Source: Opitutia bacterium ISCC 52
GTDB taxonomy: Bacteria > Verrucomicrobiota > Verrucomicrobiia > Opitutales > UBA2995
Direction of reading: 5' to 3'
Assembly (NCBI GenBank): GCA_014529675.2
Contig: CP076040.1
Location: 2,127,894 to 2,191,893, forward strand
DNA: 64,000 nucleotides
Below, piece after piece: positions 4,545-32,236 of the stretch. The notes beneath the pieces were generated by a model, which saw only the letters and a list, made by a program, of their open reading frames with translations, was not told the origin of the DNA and searched no databases. Numbering within the stretch: position 1 is the stretch's first letter; each line of letters opens with the position of its first letter. The position numbers were made by a program, and so were the translations under genes.

Positions 4545-5906
4545 CTAGCCGTTTAGAGGCCAACCGTCGCGATACGTTTTCTTAAACGGTTTGTATGCTT
4601 TATTGTGACCTATGAGCTTACCTTTCTTACCATCGTATTTGAGCTTTTCCCCGGCAGAGAAAGCGGTGAGTCCCAGGAACATCATTTCCATCATCTTACC
4701 ATTGTAGTCGAAGTTACAGGAAGTCTTCTTGTTGCCCTTGGCGGCATCAATCCACTCTTCCTGGAATCCTTTAGCGGGAGGCGCGACTTTCTTTTTAGGC
4801 CGTGGCTCATAATAAGTCATATCCGCAACCTTACCGTATGGAAGGATGGCTCTCGTAGTGAAATCGCATACCAAGGCTCCTTCGGATCCGATAAACATTC
4901 CACCATGACCAATTTTGCTAACGTCGATAAACTTGTTAGGCATCTTGGGTTTCATAGCACCTTGCCACCAGTTGACGCGAATCTCTCCACGCCATTTGTT
5001 TGCTGGTATCATGAACCAGGAGTGCATGTCCACGGGTACCGTTTCGTCACTAAAGGCTTCACCTTTGGCTTCAGCAGTCGTTGGCAAATCAGCATCCAGC
5101 GCATTCCAAACCAAATCCATGGTGTGTGCACCCATGTCACCAATCTGTCCGCAACCAAAATCCCAGTATCGATTCCAGCTCAGGCAATTTGAACCCGGGC
5201 GATCGTAGGAAGGGATCTGGGCAGCAAAATATCCATCGCTGTATCCATGATCAGGAGAGGGTCCAAGCCAGAGATCCCAATCCAGTTCCCTGGGTGGCTT
5301 TCCGCTTGGTTCTGGGTATCCAGGAGAACGAAGTTCGCGATTACCCCAGGCATGTACGTCTCTAACTTCACCAATGGCTCCATCTTTGATGAGCTCGCGG
5401 ACGCGGGCAAAATTGGGGCCTGCGTGACGCTGCGTTCCTACTTGCGTTGCGAGCTTATCTTTCTTATCCAGGTATTTGAGGCGATTGTAGCGGGCTTCGT
5501 GCACACAATTGCCGAGTGGCTTCTCAAGATATACATGATAGTCACGATTCAAAGACCAGGAAGCGAGATGACCGTGCGTATGGTCGGGAGTACAAACTAC
5601 CACCGCGTCAATGTCCGGCTGATCAAGCGCTACGCGCCAATCCTTATAGGTTTTGGCTTTGGGAAATTCTTTAACCGCCTTGGCCATCATGCGGTCGTCC
5701 ACATCGCAGAGCGCGACTACATTCTGTGATTTCAACACATTGTAGTGGGCCTTGGCGCGCCCGTAGGCTCCTATCAGAGCGATATTGAGTTTGTTATTGG
5801 CGGAATTCTGTCCGAATAAAGTGCCGCTAGGCATAACCATTAAACCAGCGCCAACGGCAGCTGAAGATTTAACGAACGAACGTCGATCAATTGGGGTAGT
5901 CTTCAT
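4545..5906 (-). CDS. Tat-exported Gfo/Idh/MocA family oxidoreductase
   Basis: A 453-residue NAD(P)-dependent sugar or inositol dehydrogenase-like protein. The N-terminus has a twin-arginine signal (DRRSFVK, then a hydrophobic stretch), so the folded enzyme with cofactor is probably exported to the periplasm. A Rossmann fold starts with IALIGAYGRAKAHY near residue 42, and the family motif EKP is present (LEKPLGN, about residue 130). The C-terminal half is the alpha/beta substrate domain. Homologues in PVC bacteria and Bacteroidota act on sugars, some forming 3-keto sugars. It is the first gene of the operon with the Nramp-like carrier and a lipoprotein sulfatase. A terminator-like hairpin lies upstream, so it should have its own promoter. 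The substrate is not predictable. Confidence 0.88.
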   Translation of the reverse strand: MKTTPIDRRSFVKSSAAVGAGLMVMPSGTLFGQNSANNKLNIALIGAYGRAKAHYNVLKSQNVVALCDVDDRMMAKAVKEFPKAKTYKDWRVALDQPDIDAVVVCTPDHTHGHLASWSLNRDYHVYLEKPLGNCVHEARYNRLKYLDKKDKLATQVGTQRHAGPNFARVRELIKDGAIGEVRDVHAWGNRELRSPGYPEPSGKPPRELDWDLWLGPSPDHGYSDGYFAAQIPSYDRPGSNCLSWNRYWDFGCGQIGDMGAHTMDLVWNALDADLPTTAEAKGEAFSDETVPVDMHSWFMIPANKWRGEIRVNWWQGAMKPKMPNKFIDVSKIGHGGMFIGSEGALVCDFTTRAILPYGKVADMTYYEPRPKKKVAPPAKGFQEEWIDAAKGNKKTSCNFDYNGKMMEMMFLGLTAFSAGEKLKYDGKKGKLIGHNKAYKPFKKTYRDGWPLNG

Positions 5907-5995
5907 AATTCTAGTTGTTTTGTGCGAAGTGCTTAGAAGGTATTAATAATAACTAAGAGATAATAGTAGTTGTTTTGGCTTTTGCATGCGATTCC

Positions 5996-6029
5996 TAAAA
6001 AGCGATTTCTGCCGTTTTTCTAAATCGCT
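5996..6029 (-). terminator. Rho-independent terminator of the sulfatase at 6063-7550
   Basis: Read on the minus strand, the stem AGCGATTT/AAATCGCT (8 bp, 13-nt loop) is followed directly by TTTTT. It lies 34 bp past the TGA stop of the sulfatase and before the Gfo/Idh gene, so the two belong to separate transcription units. Confidence 0.6.
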
Positions 6030-6062
6030 AATAGTGAATGCTATAGGAGCTAATTGCTTGGC

Positions 6063-7550
6063 TCAGTGGGACGCAAGATCTGGAAACGTCGATTTCAGGT
6101 CCAATGGGTCCTCCATTTTTTCCTGTTGGGCAAGGAGCTCTTGAAACATTTCCCGAATTCGCCCCCATTGTGCGGGGAGTCCAGCCAAGTCACGCATTTC
6201 CTCAGGATCTTCAGCAATATTGAACAAACGTACCGTCTTAACCGGTGGATAAACAATTAATTTGTAGTCCCCTACCCGAATGGCGCGTTGTAAGGTTGGC
6301 GTATAGGCAAAATAAACAGAGTCACCTAAATGGCTTTCCCTTTTCGCATCCCCAATGAGGGGCAACAAACTACTGAATTCGACGTACTCAGGTTTTTTGA
6401 CCCCAGCCAGCTCGAGGGAAGTTGCCATCACATCCTGTAAGTGGATGAACTGATCACGGCTTTCCCCTTTCGGAATATCGGGGCCAACGACCAAAAACGG
6501 AACCTTCAGACTATGTTCATACATATTCTGTTTTCCAATCAATCCATGGTGTCCCACAGACAACCCGTGATCAGCAGTGAAGAAAATGTAAGTGTTATCT
6601 TTTTGGCCGGTTTCTTCGAGTTTCTGTAAAATACGGCCAATCTGCTCATCCATATGAGAGATGATGGCGAAGTACTCCTGGCGGTTTACACGCACTGAAT
6701 ATTCAGTCCTAGGATGTGGCGCCAAGTTTTCGTCCCGTTGCATAGCCCAACTTCCGTCCGCCTTTTGCGTTCCGTAAAGTCCGATGTCATGCTTATAGGG
6801 ATAGGATGGCATGTAATTAACGGGCACCTTGACCTTCTCCTGCGGATACATGTCGACAAACTTTTTGGGGGCTTGGCGTGGATCATGCGGTGCATTGAAT
6901 GCTAGAAACATGAAGAATGGTTTTTCACTTTCCGAGGCATCGTCCAGAAAGGTTTCCGCGTCATCGGCAAGAACTTCACTCCAGTGTTTTCCGCCTTTCC
7001 AGAAGCCTTCGAACGACTGGTCGTAGGGCGACCACTTGTCTAGCTGTCCCTCAATAGGACGAACATATCCTTCAGGCGTCTGATTGGGCATGCCAGGACG
7101 TTCGTGTATAGCGTGCTGATAAATTTCAGCAGAAGGTATCTTCACGTGCCATTTTCCAGACATGTAGGTCTCGTAGCCAGCGGCTTCCATGAGCTGCGGC
7201 CAGGTTTGTCCTTTTGCCTTGAGCTCATCTAGCTTTTTTCGGCTATCAACCTGGTGGGCACGCCAGATGAAACGGCCGGTCTGCATCATTGTGCGGGATG
7301 CAATACAAATGGCGCCGTTCCAGCCACCCATGTTGTAAGCGTTATAAAAACTAACTCCAGTATCAGCCAGCGTGTCCAGGTTTGGCGTGCTGACTTCATC
7401 ATAGCCGTGCGCATTAATCGTTTCATAACTCTGGTCATCTGCAAAAATGAACAGGACATTAGGCTTTTTTGCCGTGAGAGTGCCACTTGTCGCAACTCCA
7501 AGAGTTAAAGAAAGTAGGATCAGGTAAGATCGAAGATATTTCTGAAGCAT
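6063..7550 (-). CDS. Family S1 sulfatase, CxAxR type
   Basis: Secreted sulfatase of 495 residues from the ATG at 7550. A Sec signal peptide (hydrophobic core LILLSLTLGVA) is followed by the FADDQ metal motif at residues 37-40, the formylglycine site CIASR at Cys82 (alanine instead of proline), and the second metal site TADHG with a nearby GKQNMYEHSLKVP stretch. The DHG and MYEHS pattern resembles choline-sulfatase/iduronate-sulfatase-like branches of S1 rather than arylsulfatases with SDNG. An in-frame ATG 30 codons further upstream would place the signal peptide internally, so the inner start is preferred. It is monocistronic by position: a terminator follows and a 322-bp gap with a decayed plus-strand gene precedes it. 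The substrate is unknown. Confidence 0.87.
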   Translation of the reverse strand: MLQKYLRSYLILLSLTLGVATSGTLTAKKPNVLFIFADDQSYETINAHGYDEVSTPNLDTLADTGVSFYNAYNMGGWNGAICIASRTMMQTGRFIWRAHQVDSRKKLDELKAKGQTWPQLMEAAGYETYMSGKWHVKIPSAEIYQHAIHERPGMPNQTPEGYVRPIEGQLDKWSPYDQSFEGFWKGGKHWSEVLADDAETFLDDASESEKPFFMFLAFNAPHDPRQAPKKFVDMYPQEKVKVPVNYMPSYPYKHDIGLYGTQKADGSWAMQRDENLAPHPRTEYSVRVNRQEYFAIISHMDEQIGRILQKLEETGQKDNTYIFFTADHGLSVGHHGLIGKQNMYEHSLKVPFLVVGPDIPKGESRDQFIHLQDVMATSLELAGVKKPEYVEFSSLLPLIGDAKRESHLGDSVYFAYTPTLQRAIRVGDYKLIVYPPVKTVRLFNIAEDPEEMRDLAGLPAQWGRIREMFQELLAQQEKMEDPLDLKSTFPDLASH

Positions 7551-15207: not shown

Positions 15208-16344
15208 TTACTCAGAGAACGTCTCATCCGGTAGTCTAACCAGTTCCCCGCCCTTTAGCGCTGAGTCATGGGCGAGAATACCGGTGCAGGTCCAATTGGC
15301 CGATTGCTTGGCGTTGGGCCATGGGTCACGGCCTTGGATCAGTGCATCCACAAACTCATGAGCCAGATGAGGGTGGGAACCGCCGTGGCCGGCACCCTGA
15401 GTGAAAGACAAATGCTCCTCGTCTCCTTCATCACCGCCGTAAACACCGCCAAGCGTAAAGGGAGCCACTTCATCGGGTAGCAGATGACCAAAGTCAGGGC
15501 ATTGCACCTTCTCAGGGATTTCAGGTTCCGGTTTCTTTGCCGTGTGAACGACCAGGGGTTCGCCTTCGATCAATGGCCATTCGACTGATTTATCAACGCC
15601 GTAGACATCGATGCTTTCGCGATACTGACGAGCAACATCAAATAGTGACCGGATGATGCGTGCCGTCAGGTCGCTGTCCCGCATTTTGATATGAGTGGTC
15701 TCAATTGCGAATGGAGAATTGTAGTGATGATGCATCTCTTCGCGGATAGTTCCTGATGGAAAACAGCTCACATATTCTGCATCCTTTTTCGGCAAACCAA
15801 GGACTGGACCGACGCAGTGTGTAGCATAGTACATCGGCGGTAGACCTGGCCAATAACCAGGCCATCCATCCATGTCCTGTTGATGGGATGCTTGGAGAAA
15901 TTGCAATTTGCCTAGCTCACCATCCTCAAAAAGTTTTTTCATGTAGAGGAACTCGCGCGAGTAAACCACGGTTTCCATCATCATGTATTTTAAGCCAGTT
16001 TCATTGACCAAACGAATGATCTCCAAGCAGTCTTCTACCGAAGTTGCCATAGGCACGGTACAGGCCACATGCTTGCCGGCCTTTAGTGCGGCAATCGATT
16101 GTTCTGCATGATTTGGGATAGGTGAGTTTATGTGGACGGCATCCACCTCTGGGTCTTTAAGCAACTCATTATAATCGGTATAGCGTTTTTCCACTCCATA
16201 CTTGTCGCCTACTTCATTGAGCGCAGATTCGGTGCGCTGGCAAATGGCATACATGTTCGCTTGAGCATGTTTTTGATAGATGGGAATGAACTCGGCGCCG
16301 AATCCGAGACCGACGATGGCTATATTGATTTTCTTATCACTCAT
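15208..16344 (-). CDS. Cytoplasmic Gfo/Idh/MocA family protein lacking EKP motif
   Basis: A 378-residue protein with an N-terminal Rossmann fold (IAIVGLGFGAEFIPIY, GxGxxA-type) and no signal peptide, so probably cytoplasmic. The family motif that carries the catalytic lysine (usually CEKPLA) reads CTVPMATS at about residue 95, so the lysine is missing. The C-terminal domain has metal-like histidine clusters (MHHHYNSPF and GHGGSHPHLAHEF). PVC genomes carry many such paralogues of unknown substrate. A non-dehydrogenase activity or altered chemistry is possible. It lies between the large ThuA-dehydrogenase-cytochrome gene (153-bp gap containing an inverted repeat element) and a sulfatase. No Shine-Dalgarno is seen. 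Confidence 0.8.
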   Translation of the reverse strand: MSDKKINIAIVGLGFGAEFIPIYQKHAQANMYAICQRTESALNEVGDKYGVEKRYTDYNELLKDPEVDAVHINSPIPNHAEQSIAALKAGKHVACTVPMATSVEDCLEIIRLVNETGLKYMMMETVVYSREFLYMKKLFEDGELGKLQFLQASHQQDMDGWPGYWPGLPPMYYATHCVGPVLGLPKKDAEYVSCFPSGTIREEMHHHYNSPFAIETTHIKMRDSDLTARIIRSLFDVARQYRESIDVYGVDKSVEWPLIEGEPLVVHTAKKPEPEIPEKVQCPDFGHLLPDEVAPFTLGGVYGGDEGDEEHLSFTQGAGHGGSHPHLAHEFVDALIQGRDPWPNAKQSANWTCTGILAHDSALKGGELVRLPDETFSE

Positions 16345-29223: not shown

Positions 29224-29352
29224 AGGGTAGAAGTTTATACCAAGCGTTCAATAATGGTAGCCTGTAAAAACGGGATGGGAATATTCAATGCAGGTAAGAT
29301 TTGAGGCAATGGCCTAGGGTAATTAAGCAAATAACCAAACTGGTCGCAGTTG

Positions 29353-29392
29353 CCTGACAACACAAGTTGAAAGGTAGATGTCAGGTTCAACT
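29353..29392. promoter_or_regulatory. Two interleaved inverted repeats in a divergent intergenic region
   Basis: CCTGACA/TGTCAGG (29353-29359 and 29379-29385) interleaves with AGTTGAA/TTCAACT (29365-29371 and 29386-29392). Both are perfect 7-bp repeats and mutually exclusive as hairpins, which would suit a switch or paired operators in the 264-bp gap between the ThuA operon and the plus-strand gene at 29488. Nothing else was recognised in that gap. Confidence 0.35.
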
Positions 29393-29487
29393 AGACTATT
29401 GAATTGAATGTGATCAAACACGGCCTTGTGATGGTTCTTCAAAATTTAACATTTCCATAAAGACATTCAACGAATCCCGTTATAGGT

Positions 29488-30033
29488 ATGAAATTTAATA
29501 AGCTAAATGACTGGTTAAGAGTCATCGCTGACTTGGGTATCCTAGTCGGCATCCTTCTGGTTCTGGTGCAGATGAATCAAAACGAAGATCTGATGCGTTC
29601 TCAGATAATGAATCAATACTATGATTCATACTCATCCTATGAGGCGTCATTTGCCGGGGAGAATCTACCTGCCATCTGGGAAAAGTCGTTGCTCGATCCT
29701 GAAAACCTAACCCTGGCAGAAATGCGGGCGCTGGAAGCGGTCACCTTTGCCCCGTTATTCCGTTGGATTAACCTTTATCGCTAAAGCGAGGCCGGAGTTT
29801 TGGGGAATATGGACTGGAAGGAAGAAGTAGAGATGGATGCAGCTTGGATTTTCAAGAGCCCCTATGCTCGCGCATGGTGGAAATACACCAGCGAAGGATT
29901 ACGTAAAAGTGGTTATCTTACCGAAGAACTTTACCAAACGATTGAGACTGCTATTAATGACCCCAAGTCGAATGGCCCCAGAGAACAATTTGAAACCATT
30001 CAGGAAATCTTAAAACAGAGCAAAGCAGAGTAG
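29488..30033 (+). pseudogene. Small one-TM hypothetical protein gene interrupted by TAA
   Basis: From ATG 29488 there is a single membrane segment (LGILVGILLVLVQ, about residues 17-30) followed by NQNEDLMRSQIMNQYY and a helical region, ending at TAA 29782-29784 (codon 99). The same frame goes on with WKEEVEMDAAWIFKSPYARAWW and a further helical tail to 30033, which fits the ordinary length of about 180 residues for this kind of conserved hypothetical membrane-anchored protein. Thus one substitution divides the gene without frameshift. Function is unknown. It is convergent with the sulfatase-DUF1080 gene, 16 bp apart, and unrelated in kind to the sulfatase genes. Confidence 0.65.
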
Positions 30034-30049
30034 ACAATCCTGGCTCAAA

Positions 30050-32236
30050 TTACTGATTTCCGTAAATCGGTGCTTTCCAGCCTTTGGGGAGTCGACCTTG
30101 CGGGCGAACACCGTGAGCGCCCGCCGGGATCGGGTGATCTTCGGGTTGGAGAAGCGGCAAATTGTCCGGCAGGTGTTTGATCTTAAAGTCCTTGTATTCA
30201 ATCGTCATGACAGGACCTACATGAACTTGGACCGCCAATACACCTTCTAATGCGCGGCCCGCTTCATCAAAGTCGATCAGGTCCGCCGTTTTATGACCAT
30301 CGATCCAGTGTTGATGATGATTACCTCGCACGAGCACACGGAAGTCATGCCACTCACCAGGAGCGAATTTTTTTACCGGCATTTTCTCAATGACCCACGG
30401 TTGGCCCTTGGTATCAATGATCACTTTCTCTCCTGTATGGGACAGTATGCGACGACCTTTTTCCTCATAAAGCATGCCGTTGTATTCCGGACGATCGGCC
30501 ACCACATCACACTGATAGCCGGTAACGATATCCAAATCAAGATCTGGCCGTGATTGTCCACGATACTGGATACCGCTGTTTCCTCCGGCGCTGACTCGAA
30601 CTTTAGCTCGAAGTTCAAAGTTTCGAATCGTCGAACCTTTCCAGGTGATAAAGCGGTTCATCTTCAATGATCCGTCCGTGGTACCCGTCAGTATACCTTT
30701 GCTGGCCGACCAATACTTTGGATCTCCGGTCCAATTACGGAACAAATTGTTAGAGATAAGCTGCACAAAACCATCCTTGCCTGGTTTAACCGTAACTGCC
30801 GCAGATGCTTCCGGATGCGGAACCGAGGAAAGCGTTCTCGCCGTCTTCGGAGCTCCCAAGGGACCTCCCAGCTCAGCTACACGGGTTGTCGTCCGATCCC
30901 GCATGGCAGACAGAATGTTAGCGTAAGCGGGATCACTGGCGAAATTGACTAATTCATCCGGGTCTTTCTCCAGGTCATGGAGGAACTCTTCGTTTTTGTC
31001 ATCGATGTAACGCACATATTTGTAACGTTCATTGCGTAGCCCTTCAAAAGCAGGAATCCGTTGGCGTACTGCAAAATGTTCATGAAAGGATTCCTTCCGC
31101 CAATCACTGGGCGTCTTTCCTTCAACAATCGGCTTAAGACTGCTTCCCTGGTAGCGGCTAGGAATATCCGCGCCCGCCCACTCGAGAAACGTGGACGGCA
31201 AATCCAGGTTCAGAGCAATATCCTCTGATCGCTTTCCTCTCTGATTCGCTCCTACCCGTGGATCGTATACAATCAAAGGCACACGCAAAGATTCTTCATA
31301 GTGAGACCATTTACCAGCCAAACCACGATTGCCCATGTAGTAGCCATTGTCGGCTGAATAAACAATGATGGTATTCTCAGCTAGACCTGTTTCTTCAAGC
31401 GCCTCAATGAACCGCCCAATCGCACCATCGATGCCACTGACCATCCGGTAGTAAGCTCGGATATTCGTTTGGTATTTTTCCGGAGTATTCCAGCGCCAGA
31501 AAAACCGCTCACGGTTAATGGTGGTTTTTAAAAAGTCAGGTAGGCGATCAAAAATGTCCGGATCATCGAGTCGGGGTGGAGCAATCGTTATATCCTCATA
31601 CATTCCATCCACCGCTCGCGGCCAGGGGAAATGACCGATGCCTGGTCGACGATCACCGTCTTCCGCATGACAGGCATTGAACCACATATTCAATGCGAAT
31701 GGCTGCCCCTTGGGCTGATTTTGAATGAACTCAATACCACGATCGACGATCAACTCCGTTTCATGCCTCAACGATCCATCCGGCATCTCTTTGTAGAATG
31801 GGTTTCGTCCAATAGCTTCGAATTCGTCAAAGTGATCTTCCCGTTTATACCCCTTGGGCATTTTGGCGTGCCACTTGCCAAAGTAGCCAGTGCGATAACC
31901 ATGCTCGCGAAGGATATCGGAATACAGCGTGTTTACCGCATCTGGACGCGCCAACTCAGGGTTTCCAGGCGTTCGGTAGCCTCGCCCAGTCAGACCGGTG
32001 AGGATAGTCGTTCGACTCACCCAACAGATGGAGTGGCTGACAAATGCATTTTGAAACAAGGTCCCCTCCTCTGCCAGTCGATCGATATGGGGTGTCTGGA
32101 CAACCTCATTTCCGTAGCAGCCTAAGGTGCTAATGGTTTGGTCATCCGCAAAGAAGAAGACGATGTTTGGCTGTTCCTCAGCCATGAGGCGGAAGGACAG
32201 CAGCAATAAGGGTAACAACAGGAGCAGACGTTTCAT
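30050..32236 (-). CDS. Sulfatase-DUF1080 (3-keto-disaccharide hydrolase-like) fusion
   Basis: A 728-residue secreted two-domain protein. Sec signal at residues 1-20; S1 sulfatase domain about 22-480 with FFADDQ, the active-site sequence CWVSR at Cys71 (valine where proline or alanine is usual), and the second metal site SADNGYYMGNRG. Residues about 500-710 form a DUF1080/PF06439 concanavalin-like domain (ITWKGSTIRNFELRAKVR, GGNSGIQYRG, EWHDFRVLVRG), a family whose characterised members act on 3-keto-glycosides. The fusion implies desulfation and a later step acting on the same glycan. It lies 57 bp from the upstream hydratase gene, so co-transcription is possible. Whether CWVSR is matured by a formylglycine-generating enzyme is uncertain. 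Confidence 0.86.
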   Translation of the reverse strand: MKRLLLLLPLLLLSFRLMAEEQPNIVFFFADDQTISTLGCYGNEVVQTPHIDRLAEEGTLFQNAFVSHSICWVSRTTILTGLTGRGYRTPGNPELARPDAVNTLYSDILREHGYRTGYFGKWHAKMPKGYKREDHFDEFEAIGRNPFYKEMPDGSLRHETELIVDRGIEFIQNQPKGQPFALNMWFNACHAEDGDRRPGIGHFPWPRAVDGMYEDITIAPPRLDDPDIFDRLPDFLKTTINRERFFWRWNTPEKYQTNIRAYYRMVSGIDGAIGRFIEALEETGLAENTIIVYSADNGYYMGNRGLAGKWSHYEESLRVPLIVYDPRVGANQRGKRSEDIALNLDLPSTFLEWAGADIPSRYQGSSLKPIVEGKTPSDWRKESFHEHFAVRQRIPAFEGLRNERYKYVRYIDDKNEEFLHDLEKDPDELVNFASDPAYANILSAMRDRTTTRVAELGGPLGAPKTARTLSSVPHPEASAAVTVKPGKDGFVQLISNNLFRNWTGDPKYWSASKGILTGTTDGSLKMNRFITWKGSTIRNFELRAKVRVSAGGNSGIQYRGQSRPDLDLDIVTGYQCDVVADRPEYNGMLYEEKGRRILSHTGEKVIIDTKGQPWVIEKMPVKKFAPGEWHDFRVLVRGNHHQHWIDGHKTADLIDFDEAGRALEGVLAVQVHVGPVMTIEYKDFKIKHLPDNLPLLQPEDHPIPAGAHGVRPQGRLPKGWKAPIYGNQ

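Follow-up and report, generated by a model that had tools for sequence, protein, structure and literature searches.

The DNA examined here, called the window throughout, comprises 64,000 nt from Opitutia bacterium ISCC 52 (GCA_014529675.2, contig CP076040.1, positions 2,127,894-2,191,893 of the forward strand). On the minus strand it encodes one protein in which an S1-type sulfatase is followed by a DUF1080 domain. The domain limits were set from a homologue alignment. The features are as follows.

30050..32236, minus strand: sulfatase-DUF1080 fusion gene, one intact open reading frame of 728 aa; the product is probably secreted
32177..32236, minus strand: putative signal peptide, residues 1-20, a hydrophobic N-terminus (MKRLLLLLPLLLLSFRLMA) judged by eye
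30872..32170, minus strand: S1-type sulfatase domain, residues 23-455, placed by Pfam, a sequence match to PDB entry 6hr5 and the alignment
32012..32026, minus strand: formylglycine motif CWVSR, residues 71-75, from the 80-row alignment
30767..30871, minus strand: variable linker, residues 456-490
30173..30766, minus strand: DUF1080/PF06439 domain of the Q-x-D/E subclass, residues 491-688, placed by Pfam, a structural model and subclass motifs
30506..30514, minus strand: Q575-C-D577, replacing the canonical E-x-Q pair, in the register of the sequence alignment
30452..30469, minus strand: Y590-E-E-x-x-R595, a subclass signature, from the 80-row alignment
30221..30223, minus strand: H672, aligned with the catalytic His275 of the Bacteroides 3-keto-glycoside eliminase/hydratase
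30053..30172, minus strand: conserved C-terminal tail, residues 689-728

All Pfam matches with a stated cut-off lie well above it. Sulfatase PF00884 covers residues 23-356 and its complete profile (1-301 of 301; E 2e-48, 165.7 bits, cut-off 25), SGSH_C PF16347 residues 303-450 (E 3.6e-29), and 3keto-disac_hyd/DUF1080 PF06439 residues 499-687 (profile 11-187 of 187; E 2e-28, 100.2 bits, cut-off 26.8). The initial annotation, which had read a sulfatase and DUF1080 in a single protein, is thus confirmed. It had put the domains at about 22-480 and 500-710; both exist, with the borders listed here.

A scan of a genome collection returned 80 loci that match the query over almost its entire length with 68-78% identity. 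Almost all belong to Planctomycetota or Verrucomicrobiota. On translation 79 of the 80 are free of internal stops; the exception, L065, was left out for this reason, and the conservation counts given here refer to 80 alignment rows. Because 80 loci match nearly end to end at this level of identity, the sulfatase-DUF1080 fusion is not a chance join. Mean pairwise identities are 77.5% for the sulfatase, 75.4% for DUF1080, 57% for the linker and 65.7% for the C-terminal tail. The near-equal conservation of the two halves suggests that they may share a sugar substrate. Equal identities also hinted at a transfer between the phyla; the tree requires three label changes per phylum, but its starred branches force at most one, and we do not claim such a transfer. 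In the open-licence literature we found no paper on a sulfatase-DUF1080 fusion.

In the sulfatase half, all 80 rows carry D31, D32, C71, R75, K121, H123, H190, D296, N297, and K309. We take these ten residues to be the expected catalytic and metal positions of family S1. The maturation motif of sulfatases usually reads C-x-P/A/S-x-R. The fusion departs from it by a Val in third position: C71, W72, S74, and R75 are present in every row, V73 in 79, and one row has Ile. We tried 16 open reading frames of the window, of which 11 fitted the motif pattern, the fusion alone having Val in third position; the other five, of which two had been scanned as sulfatases, gave no match. With this Val, sulfatase activity is slightly less certain; the assignment to the S1 sulfatases by profile stands. 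It could signify that CWVSR is not convertible to formylglycine, i.e., that the protein is chiefly a DUF1080 protein carrying an inactive pseudo-sulfatase. We consider this very improbable. The remaining catalytic residues are invariant, and related motifs occur in relatives: CWVSR in the stand-alone proteins L111, L112, and L117, CWISR in L113 and L114, CPVSR in L108, and CSVSR in L121. Since CW[V/I]SR is also present in stand-alone relatives, it is a lineage trait. Further, the source genome encodes an anSME-type maturase (TIGR03942, 525 bits). A formylglycine-generating enzyme of the FGE type was considered as maturase and rejected: the sole PF03781 match is interrupted by a stop codon in frame, and on visual inspection its protein does not resemble a dedicated FGE, whereas the anSME match is strong.

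By sequence the closest PDB entry is 6hr5 (E 5.9e-93 over residues 17-454), according to its title the S1_25 module of a Formosa rhamnosidase, that is, the sulfatase module of Formosa agariphila P36. P36 joins S1_25 to a GH78 α-L-rhamnosidase. P36_S1_25 is reported to desulfate the non-reducing-end Rha3S of ulvan trisaccharides, the fused GH78 carrying out the next step (PMC8511951). The earlier argument that such fusions report consecutive steps on one substrate therefore has a precedent in a related sulfatase, and a GH78 domain is also joined to another relative of the sulfatase half (L106). P36 and the present protein are alike in joining the sulfatase to a C-terminal domain of a sugar-cleaving family, GH78 there and DUF1080 here. 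They differ in this partner, in the maturation motif (CAASR in 6hr5, CWVSR in the fusion) and in that the fusion gene has no conserved gene cluster. An S1_25-like specificity of the sulfatase half is uncertain because Foldseek, when ordered by E-value, places 6hr5 tenth with 30% identity, below S1_11-type sulfatases.

The DUF1080 half was modeled from 57 rows with a pLDDT of 87.6, and a DUF1080 fold is predicted. The best structural match is 4jqt (BT3469; Z 20.3 over 195 residues, rmsd 2.7), and 9fbe, 3osd, and 8rr2 are the other top matches. 9fbe, a 3-keto-glycoside eliminase/hydratase, aligns with Z 18.8 over 181 residues (rmsd 2.5). Twelve DUF1080 entries range from Z 17.6 to 20.3. The carbohydrate-binding CBM66 folds follow closely (4azz Z 17.0, 4b1l Z 16.4) and outscore two further DUF1080 entries, 3h3l (16.1) and 4qhz (14.3).

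The catalytic residues of DUF1080 give a divided picture. BT2157-type enzymes possess a Ca2+ metal site. H275N, a lyase variant of the B. theta enzyme, is reported to be impaired in hydration (PMC13273386), and 9fbe_B reads QDNG where 8rr2_A has QDHG; because of these two observations we place His275 in the QDHG motif. At this position the fusion has VQVH672 with His in all 80 rows, and phmmer pairs H672 with the His of 4jqt's QVH. The preceding Asp is replaced, Q-V-H standing for Q-D-H. The E-x-Q pair of BT2157 is absent; its place is taken by Q575-C-D577, whose Q575 and D577 occur in every one of the 80 rows, in a register which stems from the sequence alignment and which phmmer sets differently against the second domain of 4jqt. 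Of the catalytic residues sought at the outset the His is thus retained and the E-x-Q pair is not. Because Q-x-D stands in for E-x-Q, we do not file the domain as a BT2157-type enzyme, and the reaction of the characterized enzymes may not be transferable to the fusion; possibly it could work like one. Compared with BT2157 (3osd, 8rr2, 8tda, 9fbe) the fusion domain shares PF06439, the predicted fold and the catalytic His; it differs in these motifs, in an additional Y-E-E..R segment, in its sulfatase partner and in having no consistently linked dehydrogenase.

Judged from its motifs, the Q-x-D/E form is a coherent subclass, common to the N-terminal domain of BT3469, and not simple decay. Y590, E592, and R595 are present in 80 of 80 rows. 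The equivalent of E592 is found in 12 of 14 QxD/E-class domains vs. 0 of 22 ExQ-class domains, a correlation that is descriptive as the subclass motifs were picked after viewing the alignment; the His motif is kept in 14 of 14 QxD/E-class domains. BT3469, a tandem DUF1080 protein of unknown function, carries the motifs Q-x-E, Y-x-E, and Q-V-H in its N-terminal domain, which outscores the second domain in phmmer (25.7 vs. 16.5 bits). Unlike in the fusion, the partner is not a sulfatase but this second, canonical E-x-Q DUF1080 domain.

The proximity of CBM66 raises the question whether the DUF1080 half has any chemistry of its own, or is a CBM66/LamG-like module anchoring the sulfatase to a sulfated polysaccharide. 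The initial annotation had named a LamG-like module devoid of active-site residues as the finding that would speak against it, and the outcome lies in between: the CBM66 fold fits nearly as well and E-x-Q is absent, yet the known catalytic His is retained. A relative of the sulfatase half is joined to LamG, a binding partner (L148), and an overlap between the annotations of DUF1080 and CBM66 has been pointed out by the authors of a Thermogutta study (PMC5673643). Two other fusions of the same genome, L089 808-2937 and L090 1608-2960 (minus strand), likewise have a sulfatase followed by a PF06439 match; here the matches are weak (38.2 and 44.6 bits) and the His motif is missing, as expected of a degenerate binder. 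They are probably independent fusions; L089 has the sulfatase motif CSPTR. Nevertheless, we regard a binding module as the less likely reading. H672, Q575, D577, E592, and R595 are invariant, the constraint on DUF1080 is close to that on the sulfatase, and the Q-x-D/E form with its His extends over a whole subclass. Further, a stand-alone homologue of the DUF1080 half with 64% identity exists (L105 6009-6896), which would be needless for a mere anchor.

If the domain is catalytic, it might work as an ordinary glycoside hydrolase or lyase that takes the glycan once the sulfate is gone and needs no oxidation beforehand, forming a sulfatase-glycosidase pair like S1_25-GH78. The GH78 partners in L106 and P36 are in line with this. 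So is Thermogutta THTE_1561, a DUF1080 protein reported to be an endo-glucanase that hydrolyses xanthan, lichenan, and β-glucan (PMC10881899), an activity other than that of the eliminase/hydratases. We regard this as improbable. By their titles the function-named PDB entries of the DUF1080 family are 3-keto-glycoside eliminase/hydratases, and other QxD/E-class domains of the source genome are fused to cytochrome c and sugar-dehydrogenase-type domains (L102 GSDH, L092 PQQ).

A search for the same architecture and its genomic neighbours, as recommended earlier, was successful for the architecture, not for conserved neighbours. Open reading frames of ≥120 aa were clustered around the 80 loci and the window (81 sets). 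No neighbour family is widely shared in these sets; the commonest cluster, of DUF1501 type, occurs in 13 of 81, the next in 6, and the fusion gene lacks a dehydrogenase as a regular companion. The motif filter passed over L046; the 79 loci that remained supplied 150 immediate neighbours, of which 82 lie on the same strand, about as expected by chance. Pfam was run on 112 of these, 38 having been omitted by hand: 16 from L079-L088, and 22 others because of small or very large size or because their loci were near-duplicates. Six of the 112 are sulfatases. Of the 163 families seen, PQQ propellers (in 4 neighbours) rank among the 25 commonest; GFO/IDH/MocA does not. We therefore discarded gene context as pathway evidence for the fusion gene itself.

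The unfused DUF1080 genes of the source genome present a different picture. A same-strand sulfatase match lies within 3 kb of 12 of 37 such genes (3.5 expected), a value reached in 0 of 2000 circular shifts, and within 2 kb of 8 (2.7 expected; 3 of 2000 shifts); the control leaves in any shared preference of both families for carbohydrate islands. With the limit set at 1 kb, the sulfatase count of 4 in 37 is no longer significant (208 of 2000 shifts). Adjacency to GFO is weak at all distances, with 3 of 37 at 1 kb (94 of 2000 shifts), 4 at 2 kb (82) and 5 at 3 kb (64). Three unfused DUF1080-sulfatase loci also hold a GFO/IDH/MocA oxidoreductase within 4.5 kb (raw count); in L156 the order is GFO/IDH/MocA (5849-6859), sulfatase, DUF1080, all on one strand.

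We tentatively favor a secreted protein in which a sulfatase and a 3-keto-glycoside-eliminase/hydratase-type DUF1080 are linked by a separate C3 oxidation, a reading to which we give slightly less than even weight. C71 would be converted to formylglycine, yielding the mature N-terminal S1 sulfatase, which would take a sulfate ester off a sulfated sugar. By analogy with S1_25 this sugar could be a methyl-pentose, rhamnose or fucose, from an algal polysaccharide. Once desulfated, it would be oxidized at C3 by a dehydrogenase of GFO/IDH/MocA type that another gene encodes, and the C-terminal DUF1080 may then handle the oxidized sugar. If the sulfatase were 3-O-specific like Formosa P36, desulfation would expose O3, the very hydroxyl that needs to be oxidized, which would account for the joining of the two domains. 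The enrichment of sulfatases near unfused DUF1080 genes speaks for this reading, the changing neighbourhood of the fusion gene against it. The coupling of desulfation to keto-glycoside cleavage, as initially proposed, is plausible on the grounds of the PF06439 score, the fold match and the invariant His; it is weakened by Q-x-D and by the lack of a consistently linked dehydrogenase. Further, the two steps would not be directly consecutive because the known pathway starts with C3 oxidation, which precedes keto cleavage (PMC13273386).

A more far-reaching version is doubtful. It posits a sulfate-gated, non-hydrolytic pathway in which a 3-O-sulfate is removed from a terminal deoxy-sugar, O3 is oxidized, and an acid/amide-exchanged Q-x-D/E DUF1080 carries out the elimination; the sulfatase/dehydrogenase/DUF1080 trio would recur in Planctomycetota and Verrucomicrobiota and be part-welded here.

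The strongly conserved fusion narrows the search for DUF1080 substrates, with sulfated sugars as candidates, and points to a testable order of steps, i.e., desulfation, oxidation, elimination. If such a pathway exists, inventories of glycoside hydrolases overlook part of the sulfated-carbohydrate breakdown in these bacteria. The acid/amide-swapped subclass poses a concrete question at the level of single residues. Substrates have been assigned to few DUF1080 proteins. Six fusion-bearing genomes that we examined contain 30 to 44 matches each: 43 in the source genome, of which 42 exceed the cut-off, and 41, 32, 44, 43, and 30 in the five others.

On the minus strand of the window a single intact ORF codes for a sulfatase joined to a DUF1080 domain, and the coordinates and domain assignments of the initial annotation are correct:

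30050-32236, minus strand: fusion gene, 728 aa
residues 23-356, SGSH_C extending to 450: complete sulfatase (Pfam)
residues 499-687: DUF1080/3keto-disac_hyd (Pfam, 100.2 bits; cut-off 26.8)

An NCBIfam search of the fusion returned nothing above threshold; sub-threshold matches were chiefly sulfatase models. By eye, the 826-bp gap 3' of the gene (29224-30049) seemingly carries on the plus strand a short, possibly broken ORF with an apparent N-terminal membrane stretch.

The fusion is a conserved family and no local accident. A genome-collection scan, which detects close relatives only, found 219 relatives; the best 80, which were retained, align almost full length with 68-78% identity. L065, which has internal stops, was left out of the alignment; by record titles the 79 aligned loci belong to Planctomycetota (46) and Verrucomicrobiota (30), with 3 unplaced. 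Full-length fusions are present in 4 of 288 genomes sampled from the window's phylum (the source genome G000, G223, G199 and G211) and in 6 of 294 from the phylum of the planctomycete TBK1r, each sample including a centre genome already known to carry the fusion. Counting partial relatives too (E <= 1e-100), the numbers are 17/288 and 25/294. Both parts are also found separately, since there are stand-alone sulfatases of the same lineage (L111, L112 and L117 with CWVSR, L113 and L114 with CWISR) and one stand-alone DUF1080 homologue (L105, 6009-6896, 64% identity). Averaged over all pairs in the 80 rows, a best-scoring set biased toward full-length, similar proteins, identity reaches 77.5% in the sulfatase and 75.4% in DUF1080, against 65.7% in the tail and 57.0% in the linker. 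The DUF1080 domain is constrained about as strongly as the sulfatase. Each domain was already known, as was the notion of joining a sulfatase to a glycosidase; in the open-licence papers searched we found no report of this pairing. The architecture and the Q-x-D/E subclass described below mark the fusion as a variant on a known theme.

In the sulfatase half ten residues, which we take to be the expected S1 catalytic and metal residues, are invariant (80/80 rows). The third position of the sulfatase maturation motif is usually Pro, Ala or Ser; in contrast, the fusion reads CWVSR, with V73 in 79/80 rows. The source genome encodes an anSME-type maturase (TIGR03942, 525 bits). This gene is intact, unlike the only FGE-type (PF03781) match in this sulfatase-rich genome (L142, G000:C1:3118363-3119178), which has an in-frame TAG. 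The closest solved relative by sequence is 6hr5 (E 5.9e-93), by its title an S1_25 sulfatase module from a Formosa rhamnosidase. Foldseek ranks it tenth by E-value, after S1_11-type and Akkermansia sulfatases, and gives it the top target-normalised TM-score (0.85) among the matches listed. As reported in PMC8511951, the sulfatase of Formosa P36 acts on ulvan trisaccharides, desulfating a terminal Rha3S, and the fused GH78 then takes off the rhamnose.

Eight long-ORF relatives of the fusion's sulfatase were scanned with Pfam. L106 has a GH78 rhamnosidase at its C terminus and L148 a LamG domain; L107, L108 and L145 show no additional Pfam domain, and three have a second sulfatase, the N-terminal half being related to the sulfatase of the fusion:

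L143, 589-3390: tandem sulfatase-sulfatase fusion
L144, 1-2523: tandem sulfatase-sulfatase fusion
L147, 210-2855: tandem sulfatase-sulfatase fusion

Among the partners found, most are enzymes with a possible role on the same glycan, and one is of binding type.

The chief rival to an enzymatic DUF1080 half is a binding module. The predicted model (residues 482-728, built from 57 rows, pLDDT 87.6) matches best 4jqt, the tandem DUF1080 protein BT3469 (Z 20.3), followed, among others, by the 3-keto-glycoside eliminase/hydratase entries 9fbe (18.8), 8rr2 (18.0) and 3osd (17.9). CBM66 ranks below these with Z 17.0, yet higher than the DUF1080 entries 3h3l (16.1) and 4qhz (14.3), and therefore the fold alone cannot discriminate between an enzyme and a binding module. 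The residues are more informative. According to a 2026 paper (PMC13273386), the 3-keto-O-glycoside lyase from Bacteroides thetaiotaomicron has deficient hydration activity when it carries the H275N substitution. QDHG in 8rr2_A reads QDNG in 9fbe_B, and 3osd numbering (a 265-residue chain aligned up to 290) is consistent with this His being 275. VQVH672 of the fusion aligns with the site, and H672 is invariant in 80/80 rows, which speaks against a mere binding module. In the hydrolase-like domain initially annotated the known catalytic His is kept, but by alignment the E-x-Q pair reads Q-x-D.

This pair divides DUF1080 domains into classes. We aligned 59 domain matches from the source genome, PDB chains, L105 and six fusion rows; with the six fusion copies removed, the 53 classified domains comprise 22 E-x-Q, 14 Q-x-D/E, 3 Q-x-Q and 14 other or fragmentary. 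The E-x-Q class carries the same pair as the Bacteroides eliminase/hydratase BT2157; the Q-x-D/E class includes the fusion together with L105 and the N-terminal 4jqt domain. By motifs picked after inspection of the alignment, Q-x-D/E domains have the His in 14/14, a hydrophobic residue replacing the preceding Asp in 13/14 and a Y-x-E signature in 12/14. The E-x-Q class has the His in 15/22 (the region is absent from one row) and neither the replacement nor Y-x-E in any of its 22 domains. Judged from these sequences, the rest of the site is altered in an orderly fashion. A conserved G-P precedes both forms (GPEYQ, GPQME), which supports the alignment register. The alignment suggests an acid/amide swap in the subclass; for the second domain of 4jqt, phmmer gives a different register.

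Further DUF1080 fusions have other partners:

L102, 1135-3210: GSDH, cytochrome c and Q-x-D/E DUF1080
L092, 1310-4000: PQQ dehydrogenase-type, cytochrome c and Q-x-D/E DUF1080
L091, 1955-4999: cytochrome-bearing protein and DUF1080
L096, 771-2099: GDSL-type lipase/acylhydrolase and DUF1080

The first three are possible oxidation-plus-cleavage fusions; from L102 and L092, the Q-x-D/E subclass associates with sugar oxidation. We favour a secreted enzyme whose sulfatase half would strip sulfate from a terminal sugar; after separate C3 oxidation of the desulfated sugar the DUF1080 half would cleave or hydrate the product. If the sulfatase is 3-O-specific, it would unmask the very hydroxyl to be oxidised, which might account chemically for the fusion. 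As second rival, the DUF1080 half may be a conventional glycosidase, an activity reported for a Thermogutta DUF1080 protein (PMC10881899).

Around the loci examined the fusion gene has no conserved neighbour family. In a Pfam scan of 112 of 150 immediate neighbours sulfatases are commonest (6); among the 25 of 163 families listed PQQ-type propellers appear (4) and GFO/IDH/MocA does not. In the window many sulfatase genes surround the fusion, and GFO/IDH/MocA genes lie at a distance:

15208-16344: GFO/IDH/MocA gene, about 14 kb from the fusion
4545-5906: GFO/IDH/MocA gene, about 24 kb from the fusion

The source genome (4.8 Mb) has 43 DUF1080 matches and very many sulfatases; the best 150 of 312 first-look candidates were scored, so adjacency may be underestimated. 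With tandem matches joined and three sulfatase fusions taken out, 37 DUF1080 loci were compared with 2000 circular shifts. A same-strand sulfatase lies within 3 kb of 12/37 (3.5 expected; 0/2000 shifts) and within 2 kb of 8/37 (2.7 expected; 3/2000); within 1 kb there is no clear excess (4/37; 208/2000). GFO/IDH/MocA gives a weak signal at all three distances, at best 5/37 at 3 kb (64/2000). As a plain observed count, three loci combine a sulfatase no farther than 3 kb away with GFO/IDH/MocA no farther than 4.5 kb away. Among seven hand-picked DUF1080 neighbourhoods L155 has, by eye, no such arrangement, L151, L153 and L157 show other or partial company, and in L152 and L154 sulfatases directly adjoin Q-x-D/E-class DUF1080. 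L156, one of the three loci with both kinds of neighbour, was read gene by gene and has the putative steps of the pathway as neighbouring genes:

L156, 3637-6859 (G000:C1:1377000-1384000), all on one strand: GFO/IDH/MocA, sulfatase, Q-x-E-class DUF1080
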